Assembly: GCA_946415365.1 (NCBI GenBank)
Contig: CAMKSE010000004.1
Location: forward strand, 124,001-188,000
Direction: 5' to 3'
Length of the DNA stretch: 64,000 nucleotides
Source: an uncultured Prevotellaceae bacterium
GTDB taxonomy: Bacteria; Bacteroidota; Bacteroidia; Bacteroidales; Bacteroidaceae
The position numbers and the translations under genes were made by a program. Positions 10,699 through 62,334 of this stretch are shown here, piece after piece. Positions within the stretch are counted from its first letter, which is position 1. Every line of letters begins with the position of its first letter. A model generated the notes under the pieces. That model was not told where the DNA came from. It ran no database searches and saw nothing but the letters and a program-made list of their open reading frames with translations.

Positions 10699-10734
10699 AC
10701 TAGTATTACTAGTCTAACTAGTCTGACTAGATAT
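10699..10734. repeat. Nonamer tandem array filling the adk-obg spacer
   Basis: Four 9-bp units on the plus strand: ACTAGTATT, ACTAGTCTA, ACTAGTCTG, ACTAGATAT. The array starts one base from the obg ATG and its last unit contains the adk stop codon (CTA at 10727-10729, TAG on the minus strand). TAG recurs in each unit. Confidence 0.85.
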
Positions 10735-11299
10735 TGTCAATTACTGCACAGATGTCATCGAAAATGCGATCGAGTTCACCCAAGCCATTGATATGATAGC
10801 GGATACCCTCCTGTTTATACCACTCTATGAGCGGCTGAGTCTGGGAGTGGTAAACGACAAGGCGCTTCTTAATGGTTTCCTCGTTGTCATCAGCACGTCC
10901 GCTCTGCTGACCACGAAGAATGAGACGTTTCATCAGTTCATCCTCCGGTACGTCGAGTTCAATCATTGCTGCCACTTTGTCGCCACGTTCATCGAGCATC
11001 TTCTTCAGAGCCTCTGCCTGTGGGATGGTGCGTGGGAAACCGTCGAAGATTACGCCCTTATGCTCACGACCAAAAGAATCGTATACAGAAGCAAGGATGC
11101 TTACCATCAGGTCATCTGGAATCAACTGACCATTGTCAATGAAGCTTTTGGCCGTCTTACCCAGTTCCGTTCCATTCTTGATCTCTGCTCTGAGTACGTC
11201 ACCCGTAGAGATATGGTTCAGCCCATATTTCTCAATCAATTTGTCGCTCTGTGTGCCCTTGCCTGAGCCCGGGGCACCGAAAATCACAATATTTTTCAT
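10727..11299 (-). CDS. adk: Adenylate kinase
   Basis: Converts AMP + ATP to 2 ADP. About 190 residues from the ATG at 11299, which starts the canonical MKNIVIFGAPGSGKGTQ P-loop; the longer frame to 11341 overlaps hpt and adds a non-conserved extension. STGDVLRAEI (NMP-binding), FDGFPRTIPQAEAL, and a short LID without zinc cysteines are present, which makes it the short-form enzyme. It lies 19 bp behind hpt. Confidence 0.96.
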   Translation of the reverse strand: MKNIVIFGAPGSGKGTQSDKLIEKYGLNHISTGDVLRAEIKNGTELGKTAKSFIDNGQLIPDDLMVSILASVYDSFGREHKGVIFDGFPRTIPQAEALKKMLDERGDKVAAMIELDVPEDELMKRLILRGQQSGRADDNEETIKKRLVVYHSQTQPLIEWYKQEGIRYHINGLGELDRIFDDICAVIDNI

Positions 11300-11318
11300 A
11301 CCATTTAGAATTATTATT

Positions 11319-11855
11319 TCAATCAATAATCGAATAGACATCCTTCAGACCTCGTCCTGCCTGATCGTAGTCCAGACCATAGCCTACGATAAAATCATCG
11401 GGTATACGGAAAGCCACATAATCGAGCGTCAACTCTTCTTTCAATTTGTCAGGTTTAAAGAACAAAGTGCATATTTGAACCGAAGCAGGATTCCGGGTGC
11501 CAAGCGACTCTATCATATTCTTCATCGTCTGACCACTCTCCACAATATCCTCCACAATGATGACCGCTCGTCCTGTCAGATCCTCATTAATGCCGAACAC
11601 CTCCTGGATTTTTCCTGTCGAGGTAGTGCCCTGATAAGAGGCGAGTTTCACAAACGATATCTCACAAGGAATAGTCATCTCGCGCATAAGGTCTGCAGCG
11701 AAGATAAACGCACCGTTTAGCACTGCCAAGAAGAGTGGATTTTTACCTTCCATATCCGCACTGATATCAGCTGCCAGCGACTTGATACGGTTTTTGATTT
11801 CTGTCTCTGTTATAGACACACGGAAACTTCTGTCGTTGATTTTAATACTGTTCAT
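11319..11855 (-). CDS. hpt: Hypoxanthine phosphoribosyltransferase
   Basis: Purine salvage: joins hypoxanthine or guanine to PRPP. 178 residues. The PRPP-binding motif VIIVEDIVESGQTM lies near 100, preceded by the flexible-loop region (SYQGTTSTG), with a C-terminal base-binding part (VAFRIPDDFIVGYGLDY). First gene of hpt-adk-obg, transcribed from a promoter that overlaps the divergent nnr promoter. Confidence 0.96.
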   Translation of the reverse strand: MNSIKINDRSFRVSITETEIKNRIKSLAADISADMEGKNPLFLAVLNGAFIFAADLMREMTIPCEISFVKLASYQGTTSTGKIQEVFGINEDLTGRAVIIVEDIVESGQTMKNMIESLGTRNPASVQICTLFFKPDKLKEELTLDYVAFRIPDDFIVGYGLDYDQAGRGLKDVYSIID

Positions 11856-11878
11856 AGGAAGAATGCACTAATTTTTTG

Positions 11879-11910
11879 CAAAAGTACAGTTTTTTTTTGG
11901 AATCACCAAA
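11879..11910 (-). promoter_or_regulatory. hpt: hpt promoter, overlapping divergent nnr promoter
   Basis: On the minus strand TTTG (11910-11907), a 20-nt spacer and TACTTTTG (11886-11879). Its -33 element lies inside the spacer of the opposite promoter. Confidence 0.75.
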
Positions 11911-11927
11911 TCTTTTTCCTACCTTTG
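11896..11927 (+). promoter_or_regulatory. nnr: nnr promoter giving a near-leaderless transcript
   Basis: TTTG at 11896-11899, 20-nt spacer, TACCTTTG at 11920-11927. The nnr ATG is at 11935, only 7 nt after the -7 box, so the predicted start of transcription falls on or next to the start codon. Confidence 0.75.
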
Positions 11928-11934
11928 CACCATT

Positions 11935-13446
11935 ATGAAGATTTTTACGAGTGTCCAGATCCACGAACTGGACAAATATACAATTGAAAACGAGCCGATC
12001 AAGTCTATTGAACTGATGGAACGTGCCGCGAAGACGCTTACCCAGGCTATTACCGAAGACTGGAGCAGTACAGCCCACTTTATCGTCTTTGCAGGCCCCG
12101 GCAACAACGGAGGCGATGCCCTAGCGGTGGCACGTATGCTTCTTGACCGCAACTATGACGTAACGGCTTATCTGTTCAACATCTCCGGACACCTCTCCGA
12201 AGACTGTGCCACCAACAAAAAGCGTCTCATAGAGAAACGCTCAAAGGCACTTATCGAGGTGACACAGGAGTTTGAACCTCCACAACTCGAGGCCGACACA
12301 CTTGTCATTGACGGACTCTTCGGTTCTGGGCTGAACAAACCGCTGGCAGGTGGATTCGCTTCGTTGGTGAAATACATCAACGCATCACCATCGAAAGTCG
12401 TCAGCATTGACATGCCGTCAGGGCTCATGACAGAAGACAATACATATAATGTCCGAGCCAATATCATTCGTGCAGACCAAACACTCACACTCCAACATCA
12501 GAAACTGTCTTTCCTATTCCCAGAAAACCAAGTATTCATAGGACAGCTCAAAGTTCTCGACATAAGATTGAGCAAGGAAGGTACCGACAAGATCGATGCC
12601 AACTACACCCTTCTTGAGGAAAGTGATATCCGCCAAAGACTGTTGCCACGAGATCCCTTTGCTCATAAGGGAAAGATGGGCAACGCCCTTATCATCGCGG
12701 GCAGTTATGGTATGGGGGGAGCATCGGTACTCGCCACAAAGGCATGTCTGCGTGTAGGAGCAGGACGGGTGACCACTCACACTCCAAAGCGCAACTACCT
12801 GATTATGCAAATTGGAGTTCCAGAAGCAGTGCTTCAGTTTGACCGTGAAGAAACAACCTTCTCCGAAGCCGTCGACACGGAAGATTTCAATGCTGTTGGT
12901 ATCGGTCCAGGACTGGGCACCAGCGAACAGACAGCCATTGCCATCATTGCGCAACTGCGACGTACCCAGTGCCCGCTTGTGGCAGATGCAGATGCCATTA
13001 ATATCCTAGCCAACCATCGTGCATGGCTACAACAATTACCCAAGGGTATCATCCTGACGCCTCATCCCAAAGAGTTCGACAGACTCGAGGGAGCAAGTTC
13101 AGACAGTTTTGAACGACTGATGAAGGCACGAGATCTGGCAGAACGGTTACAGGCCTACGTACTATTGAAAGGCCATCACACCTCACTCTGCCTTCCCGAC
13201 GGACATATCGTATTTAACACCACTGGTAATGCAGGTATGGCCACTGCAGGTAGCGGAGACGTGCTTACTGGCATCATCACGGGACTGCTTGCCCGTGGCT
13301 ACAAGCAAGAAGATGCTTGTATAGTCGGCATGTATCTCCATGGTCTCGCCGGTGACATCGCTGCCCGTGACCTTGGTCAAGAGAGCGTGATTGCCAGCGA
13401 CCTCATTCAATACCTGCCCTATGCCTTTAAACGAGTTAATGAATAG
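11935..13446 (+). CDS. nnr: Bifunctional NAD(P)H-hydrate epimerase/dehydratase
   Basis: Repairs damaged NAD(P)HX. 503 residues: the N-terminal YjeF_N epimerase (~1-215, with FAGPGNNGGDALAVARML) is fused to a C-terminal ADP-dependent dehydratase of the ribokinase-like fold (~225-500). The latter has GNALIIAGSYGMGGASVLA and the nucleotide-binding GNAGMATAGSGDVLTGII. Length and order are those of E. coli YjeF/Nnr. A DUF4831 gene follows 24 bp later on the same strand. Confidence 0.95.
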   Translation: MKIFTSVQIHELDKYTIENEPIKSIELMERAAKTLTQAITEDWSSTAHFIVFAGPGNNGGDALAVARMLLDRNYDVTAYLFNISGHLSEDCATNKKRLIEKRSKALIEVTQEFEPPQLEADTLVIDGLFGSGLNKPLAGGFASLVKYINASPSKVVSIDMPSGLMTEDNTYNVRANIIRADQTLTLQHQKLSFLFPENQVFIGQLKVLDIRLSKEGTDKIDANYTLLEESDIRQRLLPRDPFAHKGKMGNALIIAGSYGMGGASVLATKACLRVGAGRVTTHTPKRNYLIMQIGVPEAVLQFDREETTFSEAVDTEDFNAVGIGPGLGTSEQTAIAIIAQLRRTQCPLVADADAINILANHRAWLQQLPKGIILTPHPKEFDRLEGASSDSFERLMKARDLAERLQAYVLLKGHHTSLCLPDGHIVFNTTGNAGMATAGSGDVLTGIITGLLARGYKQEDACIVGMYLHGLAGDIAARDLGQESVIASDLIQYLPYAFKRVNE

Positions 13447-13470
13447 TATTTTAAAGTTTATTGTTTATAG

Positions 13471-14577
13471 ATGATTACCAAGATATGCAAAAGAGTGTTG
13501 CTAACACTATTCACTCTTCAGTTCTCATTTCTTTCTTTAGAGGCGCAGACCGTCAGCAGCATCTACCAGCCAGGTGTTACTGCCGAGGGTGCCGTGTATT
13601 TCCTGCCTAAAACAGCAGTCAACATCACCATACAGGTTGAGAAGACGACCTATACACCAGGTGACTTTTGTCTATATGCTGAACGCTATCTGCGTATCAA
13701 AGACGTATCCCCCAGCCCAGATGTCAGTTACCGCATCACCGCAATTCGTCAGGAAGCCATCGCTGTGGCTGATACCGCCAAGCGCTATGCGGTAAAGTTC
13801 GATCCCAAGACCTCTGCAGCCAATGTCCGACTCTCCGACAATGGAATCCTGCTTGGAATCAATACCAACGACGAAGCAAAAGACCACGCTCTAATACAAA
13901 ACAATTCTCACACCTCTCACCTCTCTGCACCTACTTCTATGCTAAATCCACGTCAGTACATGAATGAGGAAACCTTGTCCGCAGGAAGTACTGCCAAGAT
14001 GGCTGAACTGACGGCGCAGGATATCTACGAAATACGCGAGAGCCGTAGTATGCTCGTACGAGGACAGGCAGACAACATGCCCAAGGACGGTGAGCAACTG
14101 CGCTTGATGCTCAACCAACTCGACGTGCAGGACCGTGCTCTTACCAGTCTCTTCACAGGATCATTAATCAAGGATACTGTTGAACAGGTCTTTACTATCA
14201 TACCCGAGAATAACATTAATCATGAGATTCTATTCCGCTTCTCAAAAAAACTTGGTCTCGTAGATAAAGATGACTTCGCGGGCGTACCTTATTATATAAA
14301 TATAGAGAACCTCAGGACTGTACCTCTACCAGAGTCTGTTGATCCAAAGAAGAAGCTGAAACCGATGTATGGTATCTTTGTAAACGTTCCTGGCCGTCTG
14401 CGTTCAAGTGTGTCAGACAGCCAGGCTGTACTTATCTCAAATGATTTTCCTGCAGGACAGTTCGGCAACGTGGAACTACTCAGTGGTGCACTCTTCAACA
14501 AACATTACACCACCCATCTATGGCTTAATCCCATATCAGGCGCTATAGAGCGTCTGGATGCCGAGCAACCAAGATAA
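13471..14577 (+). CDS. DUF4831 family exported protein
   Basis: 368 residues with a signal peptide (hydrophobic 10-25, cleavage near LEAQ). The mature start (GVTAEGAVYFLPKTAVNI, YTPGDFCLYAERYL) and the later KFDPKTSAANVRLSDNGILLGINT fit DUF4831, a Bacteroidota-specific family without known function. No lipobox and no catalytic motif are seen; probably periplasmic. It shares a transcript with nnr and ends at a strong hairpin. Confidence 0.8.
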   Translation: MITKICKRVLLTLFTLQFSFLSLEAQTVSSIYQPGVTAEGAVYFLPKTAVNITIQVEKTTYTPGDFCLYAERYLRIKDVSPSPDVSYRITAIRQEAIAVADTAKRYAVKFDPKTSAANVRLSDNGILLGINTNDEAKDHALIQNNSHTSHLSAPTSMLNPRQYMNEETLSAGSTAKMAELTAQDIYEIRESRSMLVRGQADNMPKDGEQLRLMLNQLDVQDRALTSLFTGSLIKDTVEQVFTIIPENNINHEILFRFSKKLGLVDKDDFAGVPYYINIENLRTVPLPESVDPKKKLKPMYGIFVNVPGRLRSSVSDSQAVLISNDFPAGQFGNVELLSGALFNKHYTTHLWLNPISGAIERLDAEQPR

Positions 14578-14583
14578 CATTAT

Positions 14584-14617
14584 AATAAATGGGTTCCAAG
14601 TTTGGAACCCATTTATT
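14584..14617. terminator. Bidirectional terminator, near-perfect palindrome
   Basis: A 16-bp perfect inverted repeat (AATAAATGGGTTCCAA / its complement) has only 2 nt at the centre and is flanked by T-runs in both directions. It separates the converging DUF4831 and fba transcripts. Confidence 0.9.
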
Positions 14618-14634
14618 TTTACTAAAACAATCGC

Positions 14635-15633
14635 TTACTCAGCAAGTTTGCCATCAGAACCGAGCACATTCACAATCTTGTGGATGTACATCTTCTTCAT
14701 GTTCTCGCGAGCGGGCTTCAGATACTGACGAGGATCGAAGTCTCCAGGATGCTCAGCCAAGTGCTTGCGGATAGCAGCAGTCATGGCCAAACGAGAATCG
14801 GAGTCGATGTTGATCTTGCAGACAGCGCTCTTCGAAGCCTCACGCAGCTGCTCCTCGGGGATACCGATAGCGGCCTCGAGGTGACCACCGTACTGGTTGA
14901 TGGTGTTGACCTCTTCCATAGGAACTGAAGAAGAACCGTGGAGCACGATGGGGAAGCCGGGGAGCTTCTTCTCAATCTCGTGCAGGATGTCGAATGCCAA
15001 TGGGGGCGGAACAAGCACGCCATTCACCAGTGTGCACTGCTCGGGAGTGAACTTGTGAGCACCATGAGAAGTACCTATAGAGATAGCCAGAGAATCGCAA
15101 CCTGTACGGGTAGAGAAGTCAATAACCTCCTCGGGCTTGGTGTAGTGAGACTCTGCAGCAGCAACCTCGTCCTCAACACCAGCGAGCACACCGAGCTCAG
15201 CCTCAACAGTCACGTCGAACTGGTGAGCATAGTCAACAACCTTCTTAGCCAAAGCGATATTCTCCTCATAAGGCAGAGAAGAACCGTCGATCATCACTGA
15301 TGAGAAACCATTGTCGATACACTCCTTACAGAGCTCGAAACTGTCACCATGATCGAGGTGCAGCACGATCTCAGGATGCTCACAACCCAGTTCCTTAGCA
15401 TAAGCAACAGCACCCTCAGCCATATAGCGGAGAATCGTGCCGTTAGCATAGTTACGGGCACCCTTCGACACCTGCATGATAACGGGAGACTTTGTCTCAA
15501 CGGCAGCCATAACGATGGCCTGCATCTGCTCCATGGTGTTGAAGTTGAAAGCGGGGATAGCATAGCCACCTGCTACTGCTCTCTTGAACATCTCGCGGGT
15601 ATTCACGAGACCTAAATCCTTGTAGTTTACCAT
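14635..15633 (-). CDS. fba: Class II fructose-1,6-bisphosphate aldolase
   Basis: Zinc-dependent glycolytic and gluconeogenic aldolase, 332 residues. Metal and substrate motifs are in order: HLDHGDS near 112, the YTKPEEVIDF region, GTSHGAHKF near 208, and VLHGSSS near 250. Its own TACCTTTG promoter is at 15677-15684. Monocistronic, bounded by the terminator at 14584-14617. Confidence 0.97.
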   Translation of the reverse strand: MVNYKDLGLVNTREMFKRAVAGGYAIPAFNFNTMEQMQAIVMAAVETKSPVIMQVSKGARNYANGTILRYMAEGAVAYAKELGCEHPEIVLHLDHGDSFELCKECIDNGFSSVMIDGSSLPYEENIALAKKVVDYAHQFDVTVEAELGVLAGVEDEVAAAESHYTKPEEVIDFSTRTGCDSLAISIGTSHGAHKFTPEQCTLVNGVLVPPPLAFDILHEIEKKLPGFPIVLHGSSSVPMEEVNTINQYGGHLEAAIGIPEEQLREASKSAVCKINIDSDSRLAMTAAIRKHLAEHPGDFDPRQYLKPARENMKKMYIHKIVNVLGSDGKLAE

Positions 15634-15676
15634 AATTTATAAGTTTAAAATGAATAATAACCTATTAAATCGACTG

Positions 15677-15684
15677 CAAAGGTA
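15677..15684 (-). promoter_or_regulatory. fba: -7 box for fba
   Basis: TACCTTTG on the minus strand, 44 bp before the ATG. No good -33 TTTG is seen. Confidence 0.6.
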
Positions 15685-15696
15685 ACTATTTTTAGC

Positions 15697-15724
15697 GAAT
15701 AGTGAATAGTAAATAGTGAATAGT
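15697..15724. repeat. Heptamer tandem array upstream of fba
   Basis: Four 7-bp units on the plus strand: GAATAGT, GAATAGT, AAATAGT, GAATAGT. TAG occurs in every unit on the plus strand. The rest of the fba-lytR spacer (15725-15801) shows no gene. Confidence 0.85.
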
Positions 15725-15801
15725 TTTTAGGAGACAGAATGTTTTTTAATAATAATTTGCAAATAATCTTCCTTTGGGATGTTCTTTTGCAAAACCCACT
15801 T

Positions 15802-15843
15802 TTCACTCTTCACTATTCATTACTCACTATTCACTACCCACTA
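15802..15843. repeat. Heptamer array containing the LytTR stop codon
   Basis: Six 7-bp units on the plus strand (TTCACTC, TTCACTA, TTCATTA, CTCACTA, TTCACTA, CCCACTA). Read on the minus strand, most units start with TAG or TAA. The unit at 15837-15843 contains the stop codon of the response regulator. The 15697-15724 array is close to its reverse complement. Confidence 0.85.
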
Positions 15844-16551
15844 TACCAATGTGTGCTGATCGAAGTAGTTCTGCACTTCCTCCTTATAGTTATCCGAAAT
15901 AGGGATGAGATTCTCGCCAAACACGATGCGGAAGCGGTCCACAAGCGGCGTTTCCGTCATGTGAACGATGAAGGAACGATGGGTACGGAGAAACTCCGGC
16001 TTAGGCAGGTACTCTTCAAGTTTCTTCATCGACATCAATGACATCACCTTCTCACCATTTTTCAGGTAGAAACGTACATAATCCTTAAGGCCTTCTATAT
16101 ACAATATATCGTCCAAACTGATTCGCTGTAACTTATAATCTGTCTTCACAAACATGAAACGATCGCGGCGATAAATATCCTGTTTTGTCAGAACAGAGAA
16201 CCACTCAAGAGCTTTGTCTGTTGACTTCAGGAAATCATCATACGAGATAGGTTTCAGCAGATAGTCCAGCGCGTTCACTTTATAACCTTCGATGGCATAC
16301 TGTGGGAAGGCTGTGGTGAAGATTATCCTGGTATCCTTAGGAAGGATTTTTGCGAACTCGATGCCGCTAAGTTCTGGCATCTGGATGTCTAGGAAGAGCA
16401 ACTGTACAGGGCTCTCGCGGAGATCCTTCATTGCCATGATGGCACTATTGTATGTTCCTACAAGTTCCAGATAAGGAGTTTTCCTAGCGTAACTCTCCAA
16501 CAGACCTGCTGCCAGAGGCTCGTCATCAATAATAGCACATGTAATTGTCAT
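15841..16551 (-). CDS. LytTR-family response regulator
   Basis: 236 residues. The receiver domain (1-~115) has acidic IDDEPL, phosphoacceptor Asp in LFLDIQMPELSG and Lys in YLLKPI. A LytTR DNA-binding domain follows (~135-236, with FVKTDYKLQRISLDDILYIE and FLRTHRSFIVH). The start overlaps the kinase stop by four bases (ATGA), so translation is coupled. As the last gene of the export operon it probably controls that operon or a cell-envelope response. Confidence 0.94.
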   Translation of the reverse strand: MTITCAIIDDEPLAAGLLESYARKTPYLELVGTYNSAIMAMKDLRESPVQLLFLDIQMPELSGIEFAKILPKDTRIIFTTAFPQYAIEGYKVNALDYLLKPISYDDFLKSTDKALEWFSVLTKQDIYRRDRFMFVKTDYKLQRISLDDILYIEGLKDYVRFYLKNGEKVMSLMSMKKLEEYLPKPEFLRTHRSFIVHMTETPLVDRFRIVFGENLIPISDNYKEEVQNYFDQHTLV

Positions 16552-17606
16552 AACTTAATCTTTATATTGGAATAATACGTTTTTCTATCTTTGGAGACGC
16601 CCTTTGTCCATTCGTACTTTTCGCTATAGGCAAGGTCGAGTCGTCGTTGCACCTGCTGCAGACCCACGCCGTGGCCACTACGGTCGCTCTCCGTCTTCGG
16701 ATAATTGGAATTCTCAATAGTCACTAAAAGTGTATCCTCCTCGGGCTGCTTCATCGTAATATGTACAAAGCTGTCATTAGTAGGTGATATGCCATGCTTG
16801 AAGGCATTCTCCACAAGCGAGATGAACAGTAGTGGAGCCACACGCTTGTCCGGATCGCGGAGGTCAGCGTTGAACTGCACATCAACCGTCTGTGGTAAGC
16901 GTATCTTCATCAGGTTGACGTAGTTCTCCAGGAACGTCTTCTCCTCACTCAGCTTAACGCTCTCCTGCTGATTGTCATAGAGCATGTGTCGCAGCATTTT
17001 CGAGAGTTGCATCACAGCATCCTGTGCCCGCTGTTGGTCAAAGGCCGTCAGTGCATAGATGTTATTAAGCGTGTTCAGCAGAAAATGCGGATTAATCTGT
17101 GAGCGCAGACTAGTCAACTCTGCCTTCACCTGTGCCGTCTCTGCTTTTACGCGTGCATTTTCAGCCAACTTGCGGGCATTGTCGGCCCAGAACCACCGCG
17201 ACGCCAAGGCAATACTAGTTCCCGCAGTGGCAAAGATTGACAGATTCACGAAGTCACGGACATAGTAAAATATCTCGTCAATGGCATCGGGATGTCTGAC
17301 AATCGAGGCACTACGCACGAATATCGTATGCGTCAGATCACTCCAGTAGTGCAGGAATATCACAAAGCAGACGACGAGCAGGGTGTTAATCATCAGGAAG
17401 TAGCGATGCTTACCCTCCACGAAATAGCGCGGCGTCAGCCATAGATAGTTGAGGTAGAACATCACCATCATCAACAACTGTCCCATACAGTTCATCCAAT
17501 ACTGGGTCATAGGCATGCCCGTACCTCTCATAAACTGCATGGGAGACAAGAACATATATGCCCAGAACGCGATGTGCAAGAACTGCTTTAACCTTTTGTT
17601 AATCAT
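16548..17606 (-). CDS. LytS/YehU-type sensor histidine kinase
   Basis: About 352 residues from the ATG at 17606; a GTG at 17612 is the alternative. Four transmembrane segments lie in the first ~145 residues, then a short coiled coil (ARVKAETAQVKAEL). The His_kinase domain has the phospho-His in SQINPHFLLNTLNNIYAL, and an HATPase follows (SLVENAFKHG, GHGVGLQQVQRRL). It has no separate sensor domain, so the signal is probably read in the membrane, as in bacitracin-type detectors next to ABC exporters. It lies 33 bp after the permease gene with a heptamer array between them. Confidence 0.93.
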   Translation of the reverse strand: MINKRLKQFLHIAFWAYMFLSPMQFMRGTGMPMTQYWMNCMGQLLMMVMFYLNYLWLTPRYFVEGKHRYFLMINTLLVVCFVIFLHYWSDLTHTIFVRSASIVRHPDAIDEIFYYVRDFVNLSIFATAGTSIALASRWFWADNARKLAENARVKAETAQVKAELTSLRSQINPHFLLNTLNNIYALTAFDQQRAQDAVMQLSKMLRHMLYDNQQESVKLSEEKTFLENYVNLMKIRLPQTVDVQFNADLRDPDKRVAPLLFISLVENAFKHGISPTNDSFVHITMKQPEEDTLLVTIENSNYPKTESDRSGHGVGLQQVQRRLDLAYSEKYEWTKGVSKDRKTYYSNIKIKL

Positions 17607-17609
17607 TGG

Positions 17610-17630
17610 CACTCAACACTAAACACTATT
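17610..17630. repeat. Three heptamers in permease-kinase spacer
   Basis: CACTCAA, CACTAAA, CACTATT on the plus strand, directly before the kinase start. On the minus strand they give TAGTG, TAGTG and GAGTG. Confidence 0.6.
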
Positions 17631-17639: not shown

Positions 17640-18857
17640 TCACTCATGCCTTATGGCCTCAATCGGATCCATGTTGGCAGCCTTCTGAGCTGGGATATAG
17701 CCGAAGAGCACACCGATGAACACGCATACGAGGAACGACACATAGATACTCCATGCCGGCACGCTCGACGGCATGCCGAACGAAGAGACAAACGCACTGA
17801 CGCCTATCCCGACAAGGACACCTATCAGTCCTCCCGTCACCGATATAAGTACTGACTCAATGAGGAACTGCAGAGAGATGACAGGTCCTGTGGCACCAAC
17901 GGCCATACGAAGACCTATCTCCTTCGTACGCTCCGTCACCGAAACGAGCATGATATTCATAATACCTATACCCGCCACCAGTAATGAGAATGCGGCAGCC
18001 ACCACGAGGATGATGGTCACTGTGTCCATCGTGCTCGACATCGTCTCCATCATCTCTGCCTGGGAACGGATGGTAAAGTCATCATCGGCATCCTCCTTCA
18101 ACTTGTGGTTGTCGCGCAGTATCTGGGTGAGTTCCTCGATAGCAGCATCCGACAGTTCTTCTGTCACTGCCGAGCAGACAATACTTGAAAAATAGGTCTG
18201 TGCTGCAATACGCTTCATCACCGTCGTAAAGGGAGCAATGATCACATTGTCCTGATCCATTCCCCACGAGTTGTAGCCTTTCGATTTCAACACACCTATG
18301 ATGCGCATGGGAATACTCTTGAAACGGATAGTCTTGCCGATGGGGTCGGTATGTTCGCCGAAGAGTTCCTTAACGATGGTGGTTCCTACCACCACCACTT
18401 TTGCAGCTTTCTTGATGTCCTCTTCCGTAAAGCACTCACCTTCCTCAACGGGCCACTGCTTGATGTCGAGATAGTCCACGCTTTCACCATACATCGAGGC
18501 ATTGGTATTGTTATTACCATAGATGGCCTGACCGCTGGCAGTCACCTCTGCCGACACCTTCGTGACAAACTTCTTCTCGCGCACGATGCGTTCGTAGTCC
18601 GCCATCTTCAGCGTCTGCATCGACGATGGGTCCTGACGCACACCACCACGCATATCTGCACCCGGACGGATGGTCAGCAAGTTGGTACCCATCGTGGAGA
18701 GTTCGGCACGGATACTCTCCTTCGAACCCTGTCCGATACTCATCATAATGATGACAGCTGCCACACCAATAATGATACCCAGCATGGAAAGGAAGGAACG
18801 CATCTTGTTGTTCGCTACCGCCTTCAGGCTTACCTTAAAAAGATTTAAAATATTCAT
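17640..18857 (-). CDS. MacB-like ABC transporter permease
   Basis: 405 residues: TM1 at ~18-42, a large MacB periplasmic core (~45-250), then three TM segments (~283-400) with the FtsX-type ending (GYIPAQKAANMDPIEAIRHE). Unlike E. coli MacB the ATPase is a separate gene upstream. Such permeases act mechanically, driving MacA/TolC to export peptides, macrolides or lipoproteins. It lies 17 bp after the ATPase gene. Confidence 0.94.
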   Translation of the reverse strand: MNILNLFKVSLKAVANNKMRSFLSMLGIIIGVAAVIIMMSIGQGSKESIRAELSTMGTNLLTIRPGADMRGGVRQDPSSMQTLKMADYERIVREKKFVTKVSAEVTASGQAIYGNNNTNASMYGESVDYLDIKQWPVEEGECFTEEDIKKAAKVVVVGTTIVKELFGEHTDPIGKTIRFKSIPMRIIGVLKSKGYNSWGMDQDNVIIAPFTTVMKRIAAQTYFSSIVCSAVTEELSDAAIEELTQILRDNHKLKEDADDDFTIRSQAEMMETMSSTMDTVTIILVVAAAFSLLVAGIGIMNIMLVSVTERTKEIGLRMAVGATGPVISLQFLIESVLISVTGGLIGVLVGIGVSAFVSSFGMPSSVPAWSIYVSFLVCVFIGVLFGYIPAQKAANMDPIEAIRHE

Positions 18858-27097: not shown

Positions 27098-27098
27098 C

Positions 27099-27156
27099 TA
27101 TAAACTATAAACCCTAAACTATAAACTTTAAACTATAAACACTAAACTATAAACTA
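27099..27156. repeat. Eight-heptamer array forming the PIG-L/GH20 spacer
   Basis: Eight 7-bp units on the plus strand from 27101 (TAAACTA, TAAACCC, TAAACTA, TAAACTT, TAAACTA, TAAACAC, TAAACTA, TAAACTA), equally four exact copies of TAAACTATAAAC in 14-bp periods. The last unit contains the stop codon of the PIG-L gene and the array ends next to the GH20 ATG. On the minus strand most units begin with TAG. Confidence 0.95.
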
Positions 27157-28290
27157 AAAATGATACTCCACGAACGCCTCCATAGCCTCATAACAGGCAA
27201 GTCCCAACTCATCGTAGTGGCGGGCAGTCTCACGGTTGCGGTCCTCGGCACGCTGCCAGAACAGTCGTTCGTCATTGCCCAGGAACGGTGCACTCTCCAT
27301 CTGACTCTGATGGCGCAGGATGGAGTTACGCTTCTCACGGAGTTCCTCAGGCGACATGGGCACGCACATCTCAATATCTGCCACCTCCCATTCTGCCCAG
27401 GCACCGCGATACATCCACACACGACAGTCCTTGAGCCACTCTGCTCCAGCCTTTTTCTCCTCGTCGATGGCAGCAAGCACCACATCGGTACACTTGCGAT
27501 GGGTACCGTGGGGATCGGCAAGGTCGGCAGCTACGTATATCTGGTGAGGCTGTATCTCCGCAATCAGTTCCTGCACGATGCGTGCGTCACGCTCCGAAAC
27601 AGGCAGTTTCTCTATCTTCCCACTCTCGTAGAATGGCAGGTCGAGGAAATGGATATGATCCTTATGGATGCTGTTATAGCCACAGGCATTACGCGCCTCA
27701 CCCCGACGGATGAGTCCCTTCACGGTCAGGATGGCCTTGTTGTCAAGGTCACCCGCCTCCTTCTGTTTCAGGTAGTTCATGATCTCCTTGTAGCGTATCT
27801 TGATCACTTCGTCAGAGCCGTTGGCAAAGAGTTGGTTGAAGCCGTTGATAAAGTGCATGTACAGTCTCACCTCCTCGTCGGCTACGGCGATATTGCCGCT
27901 GGTCTCATAGGCAATATGCACGTCGTGTCCCTGTTGCATGAGCCGTCTGACGGTACCTCCCATGGAGATGACGTCGTCGTCGGGATGTGGCGAGAACACG
28001 ATCACACGCTTGGGATAGGGCGTGGCCCGTTCAGGACGGGTGCTGTCGTCAGCATTAGGTTTGCCTCCAGGCCAACCTGTGATGGTGTGCTGCAGCTCGT
28101 TGAATACCTCGATATTGACGAGGCCTGCCTGTCCGTCAAACTGCTCCACGAGATGACCGAGTCCATTGTCCTCATAGTCCTTTGTGGATAGTTTCAACAG
28201 GGGTTTCCCTACCTTACGGCAGAGGTCGATGACCTGACGGCGCAATGTGTGCTCAGGCATCTTGATGCTGGATGTTAGGTTCAGATTCAT
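27154..28290 (-). CDS. PIG-L/LmbE-family protein, equivalent to the C-terminal half of long NagB fusions
   Basis: 378 residues. Zinc-site motif SPHPDDDVISMGG at ~99-111 and the later ADPHGTHRKC define a PIG-L (LmbE-like) de-N-acetylase fold. Together with the leader (LRRQVIDLCRKVGKPLLKLSTKDY) and TITGWPGGKPNADD this closely resembles the C-terminal half of the ~660-residue glucosamine-6-phosphate deaminase proteins annotated in Bacteroides, where a NagB domain comes first. Here no NagB domain is present; the upstream gene begins 26 bp away. It may be a free-standing deacetylase or deaminase partner, or a truncated fusion. The hexosaminidase downstream supports a role in amino-sugar use. Confidence 0.8.
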   Translation of the reverse strand: MNLNLTSSIKMPEHTLRRQVIDLCRKVGKPLLKLSTKDYEDNGLGHLVEQFDGQAGLVNIEVFNELQHTITGWPGGKPNADDSTRPERATPYPKRVIVFSPHPDDDVISMGGTVRRLMQQGHDVHIAYETSGNIAVADEEVRLYMHFINGFNQLFANGSDEVIKIRYKEIMNYLKQKEAGDLDNKAILTVKGLIRRGEARNACGYNSIHKDHIHFLDLPFYESGKIEKLPVSERDARIVQELIAEIQPHQIYVAADLADPHGTHRKCTDVVLAAIDEEKKAGAEWLKDCRVWMYRGAWAEWEVADIEMCVPMSPEELREKRNSILRHQSQMESAPFLGNDERLFWQRAEDRNRETARHYDELGLACYEAMEAFVEYHF

Positions 28291-31580: not shown

Positions 31581-31650
31581 CATTTCTTACTCACGCCTGG
31601 ATAAACAACGTCTTTCGGCGGTTCCGTTCTATGCGTTAAAAGACAAACAA

Positions 31651-31693
31651 AGTATTCATCTATTCAAGTATTCAACTAAGACAAGAAGGTTTT
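31651..31693 (+). repeat. Repeat module A, left copy
   Basis: Three 8-bp units (TATTCATC, TATTCAAG, TATTCAAC, phased from 31653) run into AACTAAGACAAGAAGGTTTT. The inverted partner is at 32001-32043. Two degenerate copies of the second half follow at 31697-31720 and 31721-31743 (AACTTGATGAAGTATAGGTTT and AACTCGACAAAGTACAAGG, period 23-24 bp). Confidence 0.85.
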
Positions 31694-31740
31694 TATAACT
31701 TGATGAAGTATAGGTTTTACAACTCGACAAAGTACAAGGT

Positions 31741-31780
31741 TTCTCAGTTTCTCACTTTCTCACTTATGACAGGAAGGTTT
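31741..31780 (+). repeat. Repeat module B, left copy
   Basis: TTCTCAGT, TTCTCACT, TTCTCACT (8-bp units) run into TATGACAGGAAGGTTT. It matches the inverted copy at 32057-32096 in 39 of 40 positions by eye. Confidence 0.9.
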
Positions 31781-32000
31781 CTGGGTTGTGTCTATCTGAT
31801 TGTATTTAAAATAAATTTGTAAGCATTTATAAATAGTTTATAATATTCAATATATTTTACATATTATATTATATAATTATTATATATATTATAATATATA
31901 TAATAATATGATTATAATAATATTAAAATAGCAAATATAGAAATGTAAATAAAAAGGAATTTATATCTTTAGCATAAAAATCCTTGTCTGTCAAAAGTGG

Positions 32001-32043
32001 AAAACCTTCTTGTCCTAGTTGAATACATGAATACTTGAATATT
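32001..32043 (-). repeat. Repeat module A', inverted right copy
   Basis: The reverse complement reads three 8-mers (TATTCAAG, TATTCATG, TATTCAAC) and then AACTAGGACAAGAAGGTTTT, matching module A in 19 of 20 bases over the second part. Confidence 0.85.
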
Positions 32044-32056
32044 TTGCAGAAATACA

Positions 32057-32096
32057 AAACCTTCTTGTCATAAGTGAGAAAGTGAGAAACTGAGAA
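32057..32096 (-). repeat. Repeat module B', inverted right copy
   Basis: Reverse complement of module B with one mismatch over 40 bp. The order A-B...A'-B' is not that of a simple palindrome (which would be A-B...B'-A'). Confidence 0.9.
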
Positions 32097-32267
32097 AGTG
32101 AGAATGACGTGCGCACCAATTGTCTGCTTACTGATGAAAAGGAGAGAGATGGCAGCTGTATGGGGCAGAGGTCCGTTCTGAAGTGAACAGTGACTAATGA
32201 AAAGGAGGTCATATCAAAGTTGTCGGTCCTCCTACTATTGGTTAATGTATTTGTAGGCTCTCATCTT

Positions 32268-52573: not shown

Positions 52574-52605
52574 CGTTATTACGTTATAACGTGATATCGT
52601 TATTA
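52574..52605. repeat. Octamer tandem array in rpsD leader
   Basis: Four 8-bp units on the plus strand: CGTTATTA, CGTTATAA, CGTGATAT, CGTTATTA, then a decayed CGCCATTC. They fill most of the rpsK-rpsD spacer. On the minus strand the first, second and fourth contain TAA. Confidence 0.85.
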
Positions 52606-53007: not shown

Positions 53008-53013
53008 AACTAA

Positions 53014-53044
53014 TTTTCAATTTTCAATTATCAATTTTCAATTA
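53014..53044. repeat. Heptamer array forming the rpsM-rpsK spacer
   Basis: TTTTCAA, TTTTCAA, TTATCAA, TTTTCAA, then TTA on the plus strand. On the minus strand each unit carries TGA (TTGAAAA), and the rpsM stop codon (53044-53042) is part of the array's right end. Confidence 0.9.
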
Positions 53045-56492: not shown

Positions 56493-56520
56493 AATTGAAT
56501 CTACTTTTTAATTGTTGCTA

Positions 56521-56697: not shown

Positions 56698-56711
56698 AGT
56701 TTTTGTCTCCT

Positions 56712-57224: not shown

Positions 57225-57230
57225 AATCGT

Positions 57231-57575: not shown

Positions 57576-57582
57576 AATCTTG

Positions 57583-57612
57583 AATTCTTAATTAATTCTT
57601 AATTCTTAATTA
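57583..57612. repeat. Heptamer array in rplF-rplR spacer
   Basis: AATTCTT units at 57583, 57594 and 57601, with a 4-bp AATT interruption after the first. On the minus strand this is TTAAGAA-type sequence with TAA in each unit, and the rplF stop (57612-57610) is the array end. Confidence 0.85.
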
Positions 57613-58179: not shown

Positions 58180-58193
58180 ATTCTATCCTCCTA

Positions 58194-58589
58194 TTAATAG
58201 ACGTAGCAAAGGACCTCACCGCCAATCTTCAGTTCAGCGGCCTCCTTGTCAGTCATAACACCTTTAGACGTGGAAAGGATTGCGATTCCAAGTCCGTTAA
58301 TTACTCTCGGCATGTCTTTGTAACCCGTGTAACGACGAAGGCCCGGGGTAGAAACCCTCTTGAGGCACTTGATAGCGTTCTCACGAGTGGCGGGGTCATA
58401 CTTCAGGGCTACCTTGATAGTACCCTGAGGACCATCCTCAACGAACTTGTAGTTCAGGATGTAACCCTTCTCGAAGAGGATCTTGGTGATCTCCTTCTTC
58501 AAGTTTGACGCAGGCACTTCCACGACACGGTGATGAGCCATGATCGCGTTTCTGAGTCTGGTCAGATAATCTGCTATTGGATCTGTCAT
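58194..58589 (-). CDS. rpsH: 30S ribosomal protein S8
   Basis: 131 residues: MTDPIADYLTRLRNAIMAHH at the start and the S8 signature around GIAILSTSKGVMTDKEA. Regulatory r-protein in E. coli; no S8-binding hairpin was sought here. Confidence 0.97.
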   Translation of the reverse strand: MTDPIADYLTRLRNAIMAHHRVVEVPASNLKKEITKILFEKGYILNYKFVEDGPQGTIKVALKYDPATRENAIKCLKRVSTPGLRRYTGYKDMPRVINGLGIAILSTSKGVMTDKEAAELKIGGEVLCYVY

Positions 58590-58610
58590 AAAAATAATGT
58601 TTTAAATTAA

Positions 58611-58625
58611 TCGGGACTGCCCCGA
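58611..58625. other. Small hairpin in rpsN-rpsH spacer
   Basis: TCGGG-ACTGC-CCCGA, a 5-bp GC-rich stem with a 5-nt loop in the 67-bp spacer. On the minus strand it is followed by TTAATTT. Too weak for a confident terminator; perhaps an attenuator or mRNA-processing site. Confidence 0.35.
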
Positions 58626-58656
58626 CAATATTAATAAAATCTCTATTCTTCTCTTA

Positions 58657-58974
58657 TTACCAGCTGGCCTTCTTCACACCGGGTATCAGACCGCTTGATG
58701 CCATCTCACGGAACTGGATACGGGAGAGACCGAACTGACGCATGTAACCCTTGGGACGACCCGTGATCTTGCAACGGTTGTGCAGACGGATGGGGTTGGC
58801 GTTGCGGGGGATCTCCTGCAACTTGCGGGCTGCCTCATAAGCGGCCATGGCGCCCTCCTCAGTGGTTACGTCGGCAGTAGCGATAATCTTCTTCAGAGCC
58901 GCACGTTTCTCAGCGTAACGGGCAACAAGCTTGGCGCGCTTCACCTCGCGAGCCTTCATTGATTCTTTTGCCAT
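58657..58974 (-). CDS. rpsN: 30S ribosomal protein S14
   Basis: 105 residues, long zinc-free form (no CxxC pairs). [28 protein letters not shown] start and [21 protein letters not shown]. The middle ([21 protein letters not shown]) is a few residues longer than I expect for this group. Confidence 0.96.
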
Positions 58975-58979
58975 ATCTC

Positions 58980-59537
58980 TTAATCGTTTTTAGCGTTCTT
59001 GAATGGAAGACCGAATGCCTTGAGCAGTGCAAATCCCTCCTCATCGGTCTGAGCCGATGTCACGAAGGTGATGTTCATACCCTGGATGCGATCCACTGAA
59101 TCGATATTGATCTCCGGGAAGATAATCTGCTCCTGGATACCCAGTGTGTAGTTTCCACGGCCATCGAACTTGCTCTCGATACCCTTGAAGTCACGGATAC
59201 GGGGCAGTGCAATACGGACGAGCTTCTCGAGGAACTCGTACATACGCTCACGACGGAGGGTCACCATCACGCCAATAGGCATCTTCTTACGAAGTTTGAA
59301 GTTGGCGATATCCTTCTTGGAATAAGTGGCCACTGCCTTCTGACCGCAGATAGCCGAGATCTCGTTGATAGCCACGTCGATGATCTTCTTGTCCTGTGTG
59401 GCGTCACCCAGACCCTGGTTGACGACGATCTTCTTCAGGACGGGAATCTGCATTGCCGACGTGTAGTTGAACTGCTTCTTCAGAGCCGGAGCAATCTTCT
59501 CCTTATACTCTGCCTTTAACTGTGCTGTATTTGCCAT
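58980..59537 (-). CDS. rplE: 50S ribosomal protein L5
   Basis: 185 residues with [40 protein letters not shown], and [18 protein letters not shown]. The start overlaps the rplX stop by one base (TAATG). Confidence 0.97.
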
Positions 59538-59854
59538 TACTTAATCTCCTCCCCTGACTTTTTAGCGATACGGGTGACCTTCTTGCCCTCGCGCTTGATG
59601 GCGACACGGGTAGCCTTGCCACTCTTCGGATCAATCAAACTAATATTAGAGATGTGAATAGGAGCCTCCATCTTCACAAAACCTCCCTGAGGGTTCTTGG
59701 CACTCGGCTTGGCGCTCTTGTTGACCATGTTCACACCTTCAACAAGTGCACGCTCCTTGTCGGTCAGGACCTTCAGCACCTTACCCGTCTTACCCTTGTC
59801 TTCACCGGCCAGGACGATGACGGTATCATTTTTCTTAATCTTGAACTTTGCCAT
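59537..59854 (-). CDS. rplX: 50S ribosomal protein L24
   Basis: 105 residues with a KOW motif ([22 protein letters not shown]) and MVNKSAKP...[17 protein letters not shown]. Confidence 0.97.
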
Positions 59855-59873
59855 TTCTTAAACAGTTTAAAAG

Positions 59874-60239
59874 TTAAAGTACCTCAGGTGCCAAAGAAAC
59901 GACCTTCATATTCACTGCGCGGAGCTCACGGGCCACAGGGCCGAAGATACGGCTACCGCGAAGCTCGCCAGCATTGTTAAGCAGCACACAGGCATTGTCG
60001 TCGAAGCGGATGTACGAGCCATCAGCACGGCGGATTTCCTTCTTTGTGCGAACAACCAAAGCCTTTGATACTGCACCCTTCTTCACGTCACTTGTAGGGA
60101 TCGCGTTCTTGATAGAGACGACGATGATGTCACCTACGCTGGCATAACGGCGGCGGGTACCACCCAGCACACGGATACAAAGAGCCTCGCGTGCACCGCT
60201 GTTGTCAGCAACAGTCAATCTTGTTTCTGTCTGTATCAT
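59874..60239 (-). CDS. rplN: 50S ribosomal protein L14
   Basis: 121 residues: [22 protein letters not shown] start, [29 protein letters not shown], all diagnostic of L14. Confidence 0.98.
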
Positions 60240-60241
60240 AA

Positions 60242-60499
60242 TTACTTAGCTTTTTCTACGATTTGAACTAATCTCCATCTCTTTGTCTTAGACAGAGGAC
60301 GGGTTTCCATAATGAGCACGGTATCACCTACGTTGCACTCGTTCTTCTCGTCGTGTGCGTGATACTTCTTTGTCTTCTGGACAAACTTACCATAAATAGG
60401 GTGCTTCTCCTTGAACTTAGCGGCAATAACAATGGTTTTATCCATCTTGTTGCTGATAACGACACCCTGTCTTGTCTTTCTTAAATTTCTTGTTTCCAT
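60242..60499 (-). CDS. rpsQ: 30S ribosomal protein S17
   Basis: 85 residues from ATG 60499 ([14 protein letters not shown]), the start that fits the family; an ATG-containing extension to 60508 is possible. [21 protein letters not shown] and [13 protein letters not shown] are S17 signatures. Confidence 0.96.
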
Positions 60500-60510
60500 A
60501 TGGACCATTG

Positions 60511-60705
60511 TTATTTATTAAGTTCTCTCTGATGAAGTTCCGATTTCATGCGGGCGATATCACGACGGGTAGCCTTAATCTGAGAAGGATTCTCAAGAGG
60601 GGTGATGGCATGATTCAACTTCATCTGGTTGTACTTGGCAACCTCTGCCTCAATGCGCTCTACCAAGTCCTTGGTCTCGAGCTCTCTTACTTCTTTAATC
60701 TTCAT
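60511..60705 (-). CDS. rpmC: 50S ribosomal protein L29
   Basis: 64 residues from ATG 60705 ([19 protein letters not shown]); a TTG two codons upstream is in frame but less likely. C-terminal [25 protein letters not shown] helix pair is typical of L29. Confidence 0.95.
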
Positions 60706-60711
60706 ACTCAA

Positions 60712-61140
60712 TTAAGCGTTTTTATCGTAATCACGTCTCACAACAAACTTAGTCTTGACAGGCAGTTTCTGGGCACCGAGGCGGAGAGCCTCCTTGGCCA
60801 CCTCGAAAGGAACGCCTTCAACTTCGAAAAGGATACGGCCCGGTGTAACGGGAGCTACCCATCCTGCGGGATCACCCTTACCTTTACCCATTCGCACGTC
60901 AGCAGGCTTGCGGGTGATGGGTTTGTCGGGGAAGATGCGGATCCACACCTGACCTTCACGGTTCATATAACGGTTGATAGCAACACGAGCTGCCTCAATC
61001 TGACGGCTGTCGATCCACTTGGCATCCATGGTCTTGATGCCGAACGAGCCGAAAGCCAGTGTCGTACCTCTGTGGGCGTTGCCTTTGTTGCCACGTCCGT
61101 CCTGAGGTCTTCTATATCTTACTCTCTTAGGCTGTAACAT
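60712..61140 (-). CDS. rplP: 50S ribosomal protein L16
   Basis: 142 residues: [58 protein letters not shown], matching L16. Confidence 0.98.
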
Positions 61141-61164
61141 AATAATTCTTCTTTAAAACGATTA

Positions 61165-61887
61165 CTACTTCTTCTTGTTACGGAACTTTCTGTCACGGCC
61201 ACCACCTGCGCTGGGACGACCACCAGCCTTCTCCTGAGCAAAGTTAGGAGCCAAGTCTACGTCACCGTAGATCTCACCGCGGCAAATCCAAACCTTGATA
61301 CCCAGAATACCGACCTTTGTCAGTGCCTCTGCATGGCAGTAGTCAATGTCAGCACGATAGGTGTGCAGTGGGGTACGACCCTCCTTCAGCATCTCGCTTC
61401 GTGCGATTTCAGCACCGTTCAGACGACCGGAGATCTGTACCTTGATACCCTCGGCACCAGCACGCATGGTGTTCTGGATGGCCATCTTGATGGCACGGCG
61501 ATAAGCGATCTTGCCCTCTACCTGGCGAGCGATGTTGTTGGCAACAATCGTGGCATCGAGCTCGGGGCGCTTCACCTCGAAGATATTAATCTGGATCTCC
61601 TTATCATAGAGTTTCTTCAACTCCTCCTTCAGTTTGTCGACATCCTGTCCGCCCTTACCGATGACGATGCCCGGACGAGCCGTGCAGATCGTAATGGTGA
61701 CAAGCTTCAGTGTGCGCTCGATGACAATCTTCGACACGCTGGCCTTGGCCAGGCGCTCGTTCAGGTACTTGCGGATTTTCTGATCCTCTACCAGGTTCTC
61801 TCCGAAGTCCTTGCCTCCGAACCAATTTGAATCCCAACCTCTAACGATTCCAAGACGGTTGCTTATTGGATTAACTTTCTGTCCCAT
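61165..61887 (-). CDS. rpsC: 30S ribosomal protein S3
   Basis: 240 residues: [22 protein letters not shown] domain ([21 protein letters not shown]), and C-terminal S3 domain ([22 protein letters not shown]). The basic tail ends [10 protein letters not shown]. Confidence 0.98.
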
Positions 61888-61889
61888 AC

Positions 61890-62297
61890 TTATTCTTTTA
61901 CGTCATTAGTTTTAGCGTCAACGAACAGAGTCACGTGGTTACTGCGCTTGCGGATGCGGTAGCCGCGGCCCTGAGGTGCCGGTCTCATTCTCTTCATAGT
62001 AACACCCTCGTCGACAAAGATGCGGGTGACGAACAATTCACCATCCTCTGCCTTGCGGTCATTCTTGGCTTCCCAGTTGGCAATGGCCGAGCGGAGGAGT
62101 TTCTCTACATCAGCTGCAGCTGCCTTCTTCGAGAAACGAAGCACACCCAGTGCACGATTCACTTCCATACCGCGGATCATATCCACGACATAGCGCATCT
62201 TGCGGGGTGATGAGGGGCAGCCTTTCAGCTTGGCAAAATACTGTGTCTTAAGTGCTGCTTTTCTTTCTTCAGCCTTAATATGTTTTCTTGCTCCCAT
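61890..62297 (-). CDS. rplV: 50S ribosomal protein L22
   Basis: 135 residues: [22 protein letters not shown], and the tunnel-hairpin region [21 protein letters not shown]. Leader is a five-unit heptamer array. Confidence 0.97.
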
Positions 62298-62299
62298 TG

Positions 62300-62334
62300 T
62301 TAATTCTTAATTCTTAATTCTTAATTCTTAATTT
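62300..62334. repeat. Heptamer array in rpsS-rplV spacer
   Basis: TTAATTC four times and TTAATTT once, in perfect 7-bp register, 3 bp from the rplV ATG. On the minus strand the units read GAATTAA, with TAA in each. Confidence 0.95.

Follow-up and report, generated by a model that had tools for sequence, protein, structure and literature searches.

The window analyzed here is a stretch of 64,000 nucleotides (contig C4, positions 124001-188000) from the genome of an uncultured Prevotellaceae bacterium (4.33 Mb in 81 contigs, hereafter G000). It carries ribosomal-protein genes together with genes matching Pfam families such as TonB receptor, BACON, DUF4831 and dockerin, a set consistent with Bacteroidales, and a search of the window with Rfam at gathering scores returned tRNA as the sole match. 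A preliminary description of its sequence had singled out ten intervals as spacers between cistrons built from short tandem repeats that carry stop codons, and these arrays are our subject; each is named below by the first position originally assigned to it. Tandem Repeats Finder returned an array at every one of the ten intervals (Table 1), with a period of 7 bp in eight, 8 bp at 52574 and 9 bp at 10699, and five of the arrays (10698, 15810, 27101, 53012 and 57592 in our coordinates) overlap the stop codon of the upstream gene, as had been described. The intervals do occupy nine spacers, 15697 and 15802 sharing one, but the first, bounded by the start of a gene on one side and a tRNA gene on the other, is not strictly intercistronic. 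Likewise, the reported stops on the sense strand, here the minus strand, were found in the units of eight of the ten arrays but not at 1645 and 15697, and closure of all three frames was found in five (15802, 27099, 53014, 57583 and 62300) but not in the other five. The weakest arrays are the short one at 17610 and the imperfect one at 52574 (76% matches). The units at 15697 and 15802 are approximately mutual reverse complements and form an inverted pair that the preliminary description did not contain.

Table 1. Tandem arrays and one composite element in the window, with positions counted from its first nucleotide.
Feature	Positions	Strand	Context
Heptad array ATTGAGA/ATTGAAA	1643-1673		Start of gene 58-1596 (-) to tRNA-Val (1745-1820, +); no minus-strand stop
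Nonad array, CTAG core and variable linker	10698-10735	-	Between adenylate kinase gene (10727-11341) and Obg-type GTPase gene (9526-10698); overlaps stop
Heptad array, downstream arm of inverted pair	15693-15724	-	Found by Tandem Repeats Finder
Heptad array, upstream arm of inverted pair	15797-15844	-	Overlaps stop of response-regulator-like gene 15841-16551
Short heptad array, 2.7 copies	17610-17628	-	Between 17640-18857 and 16548-17612
Nine-copy heptad array GTTTATA/GTTTAGT, higher-order periods of 14 and 28 bp	27098-27160	-	Overlaps stop of 27154-28290
Composite element: inverted octad arrays flanking a 32-bp AT-only palindrome (31876-31907)	31640-32120		Octad arrays 31650-32104; absent from the preliminary description
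Octad array CGnnATAA	52570-52607	-	rpsK/rpsD spacer
Heptad array GAAAATT	53012-53043	-	Fills rpsM-rpsK spacer
Heptad array GAATTAA	57583-57612	-	rplF-rplR spacer; Tandem Repeats Finder 57592-57611, also 57583-57604 at period 11
Heptad array GAATTAA	62296-62333	-	rpsS-rplV spacer

The window and 60 further stretches of 20 kb, together 1.264 of 4.334 Mb, were sampled from G000, and 711 spacers (178 kb including 15-nt margins) were scanned and compared with 30 dinucleotide shuffles of the same spacers. Genes were called with an unpublished codon-usage script, so that some genes and starts are wrong (for example, the array near the beginning of a RadA-like gene in L047 probably precedes the true start of that gene), and the detection thresholds, which varied among analyses, favored clean arrays. 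The arrays proved to be far above chance, with 147 of period 4-24 in the spacers versus a mean of 3.6 and a maximum of 7 in the shuffles. Periods of 7, 8 and 9 bp (56, 44 and 18 arrays) account for 118 of the 147, followed by 10 (4), 11 (8), 12 (3) and 14 bp (5), while periods of 4, 5 and 6 bp, with 1, 0 and 1 arrays, stay at chance level and leave a sharp lower edge at 7. Called genes (1.09 Mb) contain 33 period-7 arrays, or 5.4 per spacer-length equivalent, and 5 of period 8, a density at most about one tenth of that in spacers. No array was found in 5.1 kb of Escherichia coli K-12 spacers, and three genomes from other families in the order gave a single array in 14 kb of spacers. The number of arrays in 10 kb of spacer was 2.3, 5.8, 2.7 and 8.8 in four congeners and about 8.3 in G000, which makes G000 array-rich even among its congeners. 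Period 7 was also the commonest in four stretch-sampled congeners (5 of 6, 8 of 22, 3 of 5 and 6 of 9 arrays). In addition, GAAAATT arrays lie within the first 75 bases of the G000 contigs C15, C43 and C47, which suggests that longer arrays break the assembly and are therefore undercounted.

The expected enrichment beside stop codons was confirmed across the sample, since arrays cover 7.6% of the spacer bases within 15 nt past a stop and 7.3% at 15-30 nt, falling to 3.2% between 30 and 50 nt and to about 1% at greater distances, whereas the cover on the start side is lower, at 2.5-2.9% out to 75 nt. The overlap with stops is partly definitional, because an array that starts in a gene end on a stop-free strand would lengthen the gene and so pass for coding sequence. 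An array was present in 84 of the 527 co-directional spacers, in 13 of the 113 divergent ones and in 4 of the 71 convergent ones (co-directional versus convergent, P = 0.02), and the last 40 nt upstream of starts showed a cover of 0.6% each in divergent and in long co-directional spacers. Spacers of 30-60 nt were the richest (27 of 103 with an array), an excess that is partly self-made, as the array itself lengthens the spacer. Among 54 short spacers, the array lay within 5 nt of the start in 18 and within 5 nt of the stop or overlapping it in 36.

The units of these arrays recur at unlinked loci. Of 57 arrays of period 7 located outside genes, some of which overlap a gene in part, 17 belong to the class AAAATTG and 9 to AAACTAT, and AAAAAGGT and AAAAAAGT together make up 16 of the 49 period-8 arrays outside genes. 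Exact two-copy heptads numbered 445 versus 23.6 in the shuffles and those of AAAATTG 129 versus 0.65 expected, both with long arrays counted repeatedly. The flanks of arrays sharing a unit look unrelated by eye. Since one unit family thus occupies many unlinked loci, and since arrays also occur inside genes, the arrays cannot be duplications that began at the local stop codon, as the preliminary description had proposed. Three copies of AATTGAA were found in 5 of 40 genomes, including G000 with 31 overlapping matches, while the reversed control pattern was found in none, and the favored units differ by congener, with AACATTC (5) and AAAGGAGTT (4) in G061, AAGAATG (2) in G133 and AAACTAT (4) in G119. 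Five exact copies of GAATTAA occur, among at least 80 loci, in Bacteroidota, Cyanobacteria, Treponema, Clostridia, Cloacimonadota and others; in the 80 listed loci of other bacteria, which were picked for one heptad array, 99 of 150 other arrays have period 7. The orientation of the AAAATTG family depends on its location: the sense strand reads GAAAATT in 14 of the 17 arrays in co-directional spacers and AATTTTC in 7 of the 11 arrays within genes (Fisher P = 0.02). No enrichment of self-complementary units was detected. The higher-order A/G alternation of the GTAAAAA octads was considered as a mark of copying and set aside as weak (33 of 59 adjacent pairs versus 28.4 expected, 89 of 2000 permutations).

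The mean AT content of the co-directional arrays is 0.75, most units consisting of A and T with one or two G or C, and the purine fraction of their sense strand reaches 0.72 in arrays overlapping a stop and 0.61 in those starting within 60 nt of one. In this composition stop codons are abundant by themselves. A stop on the sense strand was present in the units of 71 of 103 co-directional arrays (period 7, 8, 9, 14 or 16), compared with 73.0 expected from letter-shuffled units, and on the opposite strand in 50 versus 46.5 expected, the sense strand having more because its letters are purine-rich. The claim that the arrays are stop-rich therefore fails by the very comparison proposed for it, and no selection on stops is needed. 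Frame-independent termination had also been suggested as a possible effect, and units of 7 or 8 bp bearing a stop might be selected for it, as they close all frames between cistrons. The crowding of arrays at the upstream stop and the counts in the window itself would fit such a role, but all-frame closure across the sample is at or below that of the shuffles for period 7 (26 of 47 versus 31.2) and period 8 (24 of 40 versus 23.5), and none of the 16 period-9 arrays closes every frame, so that selected stop cassettes are very improbable.

Ribosomal-protein operons allowed the same spacers to be compared across species. In 20 congeners and G000, 17 of 25 adjacent gene pairs contained no array in any of 19-21 spacers each, and three pairs contained one each. 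Arrays recurred at rpsM-rpsK (10 of 21), rpsK-rpsD (8 of 21), rpsS-rplV (7 of 21), rplF-rplR (5 of 21) and rpoA-rplQ (3 of 21); with looser thresholds, and with further species added for rpsM-rpsK and rpsS-rplV, these counts became 16 of 32, 12 of 21, 17 of 33, 6 of 21 and 4 of 21, respectively. At these spacers GAATTAA, GTAAAAAA, GAAAATT, GATTAAA and other units swap across species. For instance, the rpsS-rplV unit is GAATTAA in G000, GTAAAAAA in G115 and GAAAATT in others, despite the 100 and 99% identity of the RpsS and RplV proteins of G115 to those of G000, and no array was called in 14 of 30 rpsS-rplV loci, mostly the more distant ones. The rpsM-rpsK arrays are mostly of period 7 (GTTTAAA, CATTAAA, GATTAAA, GAATTAA and GAAAATT), while those at rpsK-rpsD have units of 8 and 9 bp (CGnnATAA, TCTAGAnnn, ACTAGTnnn, CTATAGnnn and GTCCTATAA). 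Between species the unit changes throughout the array, at spacers as well as at the gene sites described below, and the rpsK-rpsD linkers stay heterogeneous. Units at the same locus are more alike than permuted ones (0.744 versus 0.705, reached in 0 of 500 permutations, with the kinship of species left uncorrected as in our other permutation tests), which descent with drift predicts.

In several congeners the stop end of the rplF-rplR and rpsM-rpsK spacers is complementary to their start end (TAATCTT..AAGATTATG and TAATTCT..AGAATTATG). A stop-start stem was not retained as a general rule, since the longest end-to-end stem averaged 3.05 in 322 spacers and 3.08 in permuted pairs.

The called genes contain 36 period-7 or period-8 arrays, which by construction have a stop-free frame and whose 7-bp units give a super-period of 21 nt, or seven residues. 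Four array-bearing genes were set against their congener orthologs; several calls of array presence and of shared flanks in congeners were made by eye, and two gene sites were recounted by script. Six of the 12 orthologs of a LytS-type histidine kinase (PF06580, L068) contain a heptad tract, its units being TCAATTC, AACTGTC, GTCAATT, TGTCAAT, CAATTGT and TCAACTC, and the other six do not. The stretch between the fixed neighbors of this site is 18 residues long in 11 of the 12, namely in all six with the tract and five of the six without it, the sixth having 17. Similarly, one strand of a TonB receptor (L055) carries a tract in 6 of 10 orthologs and is 14 residues long in nine of the ten and 21 in G047. 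Its units are CAATTTT in G000, CAATGTT in G013, CACTATT in G106, ATTATCA in G119 and TCACTCT in G083, with a different and longer tract in G047, and the TCA of the unit keeps one phase across the orthologs, which suggests that these are old tracts with a drifted unit and not independent insertions. The other two arrays of this receptor sit in variable stretches, and the array of a BipA/TypA-like GTPase (L054) belongs to a loop whose length varies. In a TonB plug-domain protein (L064), arrays of the AGGAGTC type span 54 bp in G000, 33 bp in G047 and 202 bp in G119, the differences (from species and not strain pairs) being 21 bp, or three units, and 148 bp, or about 21 units; no array was present in the other 9 of the 12 orthologs shown. 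A TonB receptor loop with AGGAGTC heptads in G000 has, by eye, a short ACGAGGT-like repeat instead in G083 (L301), a further replacement of the unit inside a gene. Also by eye, heptad or octad arrays at L014 10604, L018 7388 and L048 11823 and 17563 encode on their stop-free strand the hydrophobic stretch of N-terminal signal-like sequences, the hosts including a GH2 glycosidase.

Any explanation has to accommodate these observations together, that is, the rule of period, the recurrence of units at unlinked loci, their differences between orthologous sites, the in-frame arrays in genes, the placement, and a stop content at the level of composition. We favor, with a probability of roughly 0.58, that the dispersed 7-9-bp arrays originated by slipped-strand copying with homogenization and were kept mainly past operon stops, where constraint is low, their stop codons being a chance product of A-rich sequence. 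The period threshold, the poor repair of long loops and the drift of units in place fit such copying. Once about 7 bp or more have been duplicated in tandem, the copies would anneal well enough to slip again, and the resulting loop would exceed what mismatch repair can handle, which would account for the sharp lower limit of the period; according to a study in DNA Research (PMC4060949, 2014), mismatch repair deals poorly with loops of more than 1-3 bp. Slippage within an array may then spread unit variants, so that the unit drifts while the place and mostly the period persist, and some copying between loci may produce a species-specific set of favored units. Selection would act as a filter, leaving within genes only stop-free, frame-keeping arrays, keeping the stretch before the start of divergent and long spacers nearly array-free, and tolerating arrays in operon spacers, preferably with the purine-rich strand as sense. 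Loss of mismatch repair was discarded as an explanation, as two MutS-family matches are present in the genome (MutL was not looked for).

Several results sit uneasily with slipped-strand copying followed by homogenization. Copying between loci would explain the shared units, the one observation that points to it, but the excess of unit likeness within a species across loci is borderline (P = 0.052), the shared internal order is weak (the same 89 of 2000), and favored units overlap between species, AAACTAT being favored in both G000 and G119. That protein length stays constant whether the tract is present, absent or altered in unit is difficult to reconcile with simple slippage, whose first product is 7 nt longer, and in the two gene tracts this process does not account for it unless selection discards all other outcomes. 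In addition, where arrays were found at rpsK-rpsD (12 of 21 species), their core is retained and their linkers vary, with conserved columns that cluster (P = 0.012). This structure is not predicted by homogenizing slippage and is the best hint of selection on sequence, although no clear signal of it was found genome-wide (30 runs of variable columns versus 34.2 expected in 19 usable arrays). Finally, among spacers shorter than 130 nt, 55 of 333 co-directional versus 2 of 51 convergent ones have an array (P = 0.018), an excess that fits function as well as tolerance.

Such a function might be that of a leader, in which the arrays provide a series of binding sites, or an A-rich stretch free of structure, that would assist ribosomes or an RNA-binding protein in starting the next cistron in bacteria without Shine-Dalgarno pairing. 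Their concentration in co-directional spacers, the purine-rich sense strand, the recurrence at the same ribosomal-protein spacers in many congeners and the conserved rpsK-rpsD core agree with this possibility, and MacGregor (2015; PMC4679880) reported heptads just upstream of starts, including that of S4, and proposed such a role for them. However, about half of the orthologous rpsS-rplV and rpsM-rpsK spacers have no array and the units differ among the rest, arrays are denser toward the stop than toward the start, and they are present inside genes too. Nor can RNA folding tell arrays from shuffles, as 69 of 103 arrays had a minimum free energy of 0 and the mean was -0.99 versus -0.78 kcal/mol in dinucleotide shuffles, so that RNA structure was rejected as a feature of the arrays. 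We therefore consider leaders possible but doubtful. A mobile or templated process, such as a reverse transcriptase, an element resembling a miniature inverted-repeat transposable element (MITE), or template switching to a donor array, would account for identical units at unlinked loci with no flanks visibly shared, for favored units that vary among congeners, and for replacement at constant length within genes; like arrays 10-400 bp apart are moreover inverted in 11 of 12 pairs, and palindromic elements with octad arms exist in several copies. Yet no candidate enzyme was found linked to the arrays, the lone RVT_1 match in the genome being no evidence of a role, the octad arms of the palindromic elements differ in unit from the operon arrays, and both the likeness of units at the same locus and the shared phase in the TonB receptor strand argue for descent in place. 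This process thus appears unlikely compared with local slippage. A bolder formulation, offered tentatively, is that each species in the genus has a small set of 7-9-bp words to itself, which spreads by copying from one unlinked locus to another and changes in a concerted way. The words would replace one another at operon spacers and overwrite coding stretches (beta strands, loops and signal-peptide cores) at constant frame and length, a bacterial form of concerted evolution.

Heptad repeats as such are known from bacteria; what is newer here is the turnover of their units and their spread into genes. A survey of heptamers from 2007 is probably the work of Mrazek et al. The over-representation of heptamers is credited to a 2007 survey by Rehm et al. 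(2015; PMC4692102), who treat heptameric simple sequence repeats, GGGAATC in Xanthomonas and GGGGA(T/C)T in Nostoc, name polymerase slippage as a suggested cause and mention an earlier idea that the length of a heptad corresponds to the stretch of DNA within the polymerase. Those repeats resemble the arrays described here in their period of 7, mostly intergenic location, variation of length and sequence between close relatives and occasional inverted pairs, and the over-representation of 7-bp units against a composition-matched null, mainly in spacers, was found here as well (56 versus 0.33). In contrast, theirs are G-rich and quadruplex-prone (GGGNATC type), whereas those in G000 are A-rich and outside that type, comprise many unit families with periods of 7, 8 and 9, differ in unit among congeners at one and the same site and enter genes in frame. 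Also comparable are the TAACTGA direct repeats of Beggiatoaceae, cyanobacteria and Bacteroidetes, for which a translational role was proposed (MacGregor, 2015; PMC4679880) and which, in the portion seen, are likewise stop-bearing heptads in ribosomal-protein operons, upstream of S4 among others, with a few reversed in open reading frames; however, they have one fixed unit, related heptamers being rarely repeated, while many units switch by species here. The TAACTGA class was not found among the unit classes of the sampled 1.264 Mb. The tandem repeats of Borgs, described in the accessible part of Schoelmerich et al. (2023; PMC9879509) as fast-evolving and genome-specific, are also A-rich and located both between and within open reading frames, but they are perfect, with 18-21 nt in the examples given and lengths divisible by three in reading frames, unlike the 7-bp units with a 21-nt super-period found here. 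According to the available text of PMC4060949, longer-unit repeats in prokaryotes are overall normal or weakly over-represented, so that G000 is an extreme and not the rule. We found no earlier description of one unit taking the place of another at orthologous operon spacers, nor of heptad tracts that keep a constant length within genes, a weak negative, since most subscription papers lay outside the search. The attractive reading of the arrays as stop cassettes is thus replaced by measurable regularities, namely a period threshold of 7, units differing by species, turnover at orthologous sites and in-frame invasion of genes, through which the long-noted bacterial excess of heptads would become testable as a mutational process, and which caution against reading function into repeats in the leaders of ribosomal-protein genes.

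The inverted pairs amount to about eight independent cases, as two pairs lie in one element and some elements are mutual copies, and shuffled assignment gave about one pair of each kind (maximum 5). Besides the pair in the response-regulator spacer, the window contains the composite element (Table 1), of which two more nearly complete copies (93 and 82%) and several incomplete copies exist in the genome, all three nearly complete copies carrying inverted octad arms. Further such non-coding elements were observed at L028 19030-19530, L029 290-510 and 640-810, L036 5150-5420, L047 470-690, L057 14100-14290 and L067 13570-13790. They consist of an AT-rich palindrome (14-52 bp) flanked by inverted arms with about three 8-bp repeats, the octads are mostly specific to the element, and at least two elements are multi-copy. 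Perfect palindromes whose arms reach 11 bp or more number 12 in the sampled 1.264 Mb (a count for which no null was run), ten of them made of A and T only and one more with 95% AT; ten of the 12 have inverted arms within 200 bp at a score of at least 16, and six of these ten are at least 80% self-matching at a period of 7-9. Such palindromes numbered 0 in 200 kb of G133 and 0 in 100 kb of G016, and 200 kb of G061 contained two without arms. The BrickBuilt MITE of Porphyromonas gingivalis is likewise a dispersed intergenic Bacteroidales element with a minisatellite, but in the available text (PMC4596501) its 23-bp unit lies inside the MITE, whereas here units of about 8 bp form inverted arms around an AT palindrome. 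With arm units other than those of the operon arrays, the palindromic elements are treated here as a separate class, possibly related to them. Within the ribosomal-protein operon of the window, the rpsN-rpsH spacer (about 58590-58656), for which Rfam gave no match, contains a conserved stretch with a short hairpin, AATATTGTCGGGGnAGnCCCGATTAATT, before rpsH in 20 of 20 spacers read, G000 included.

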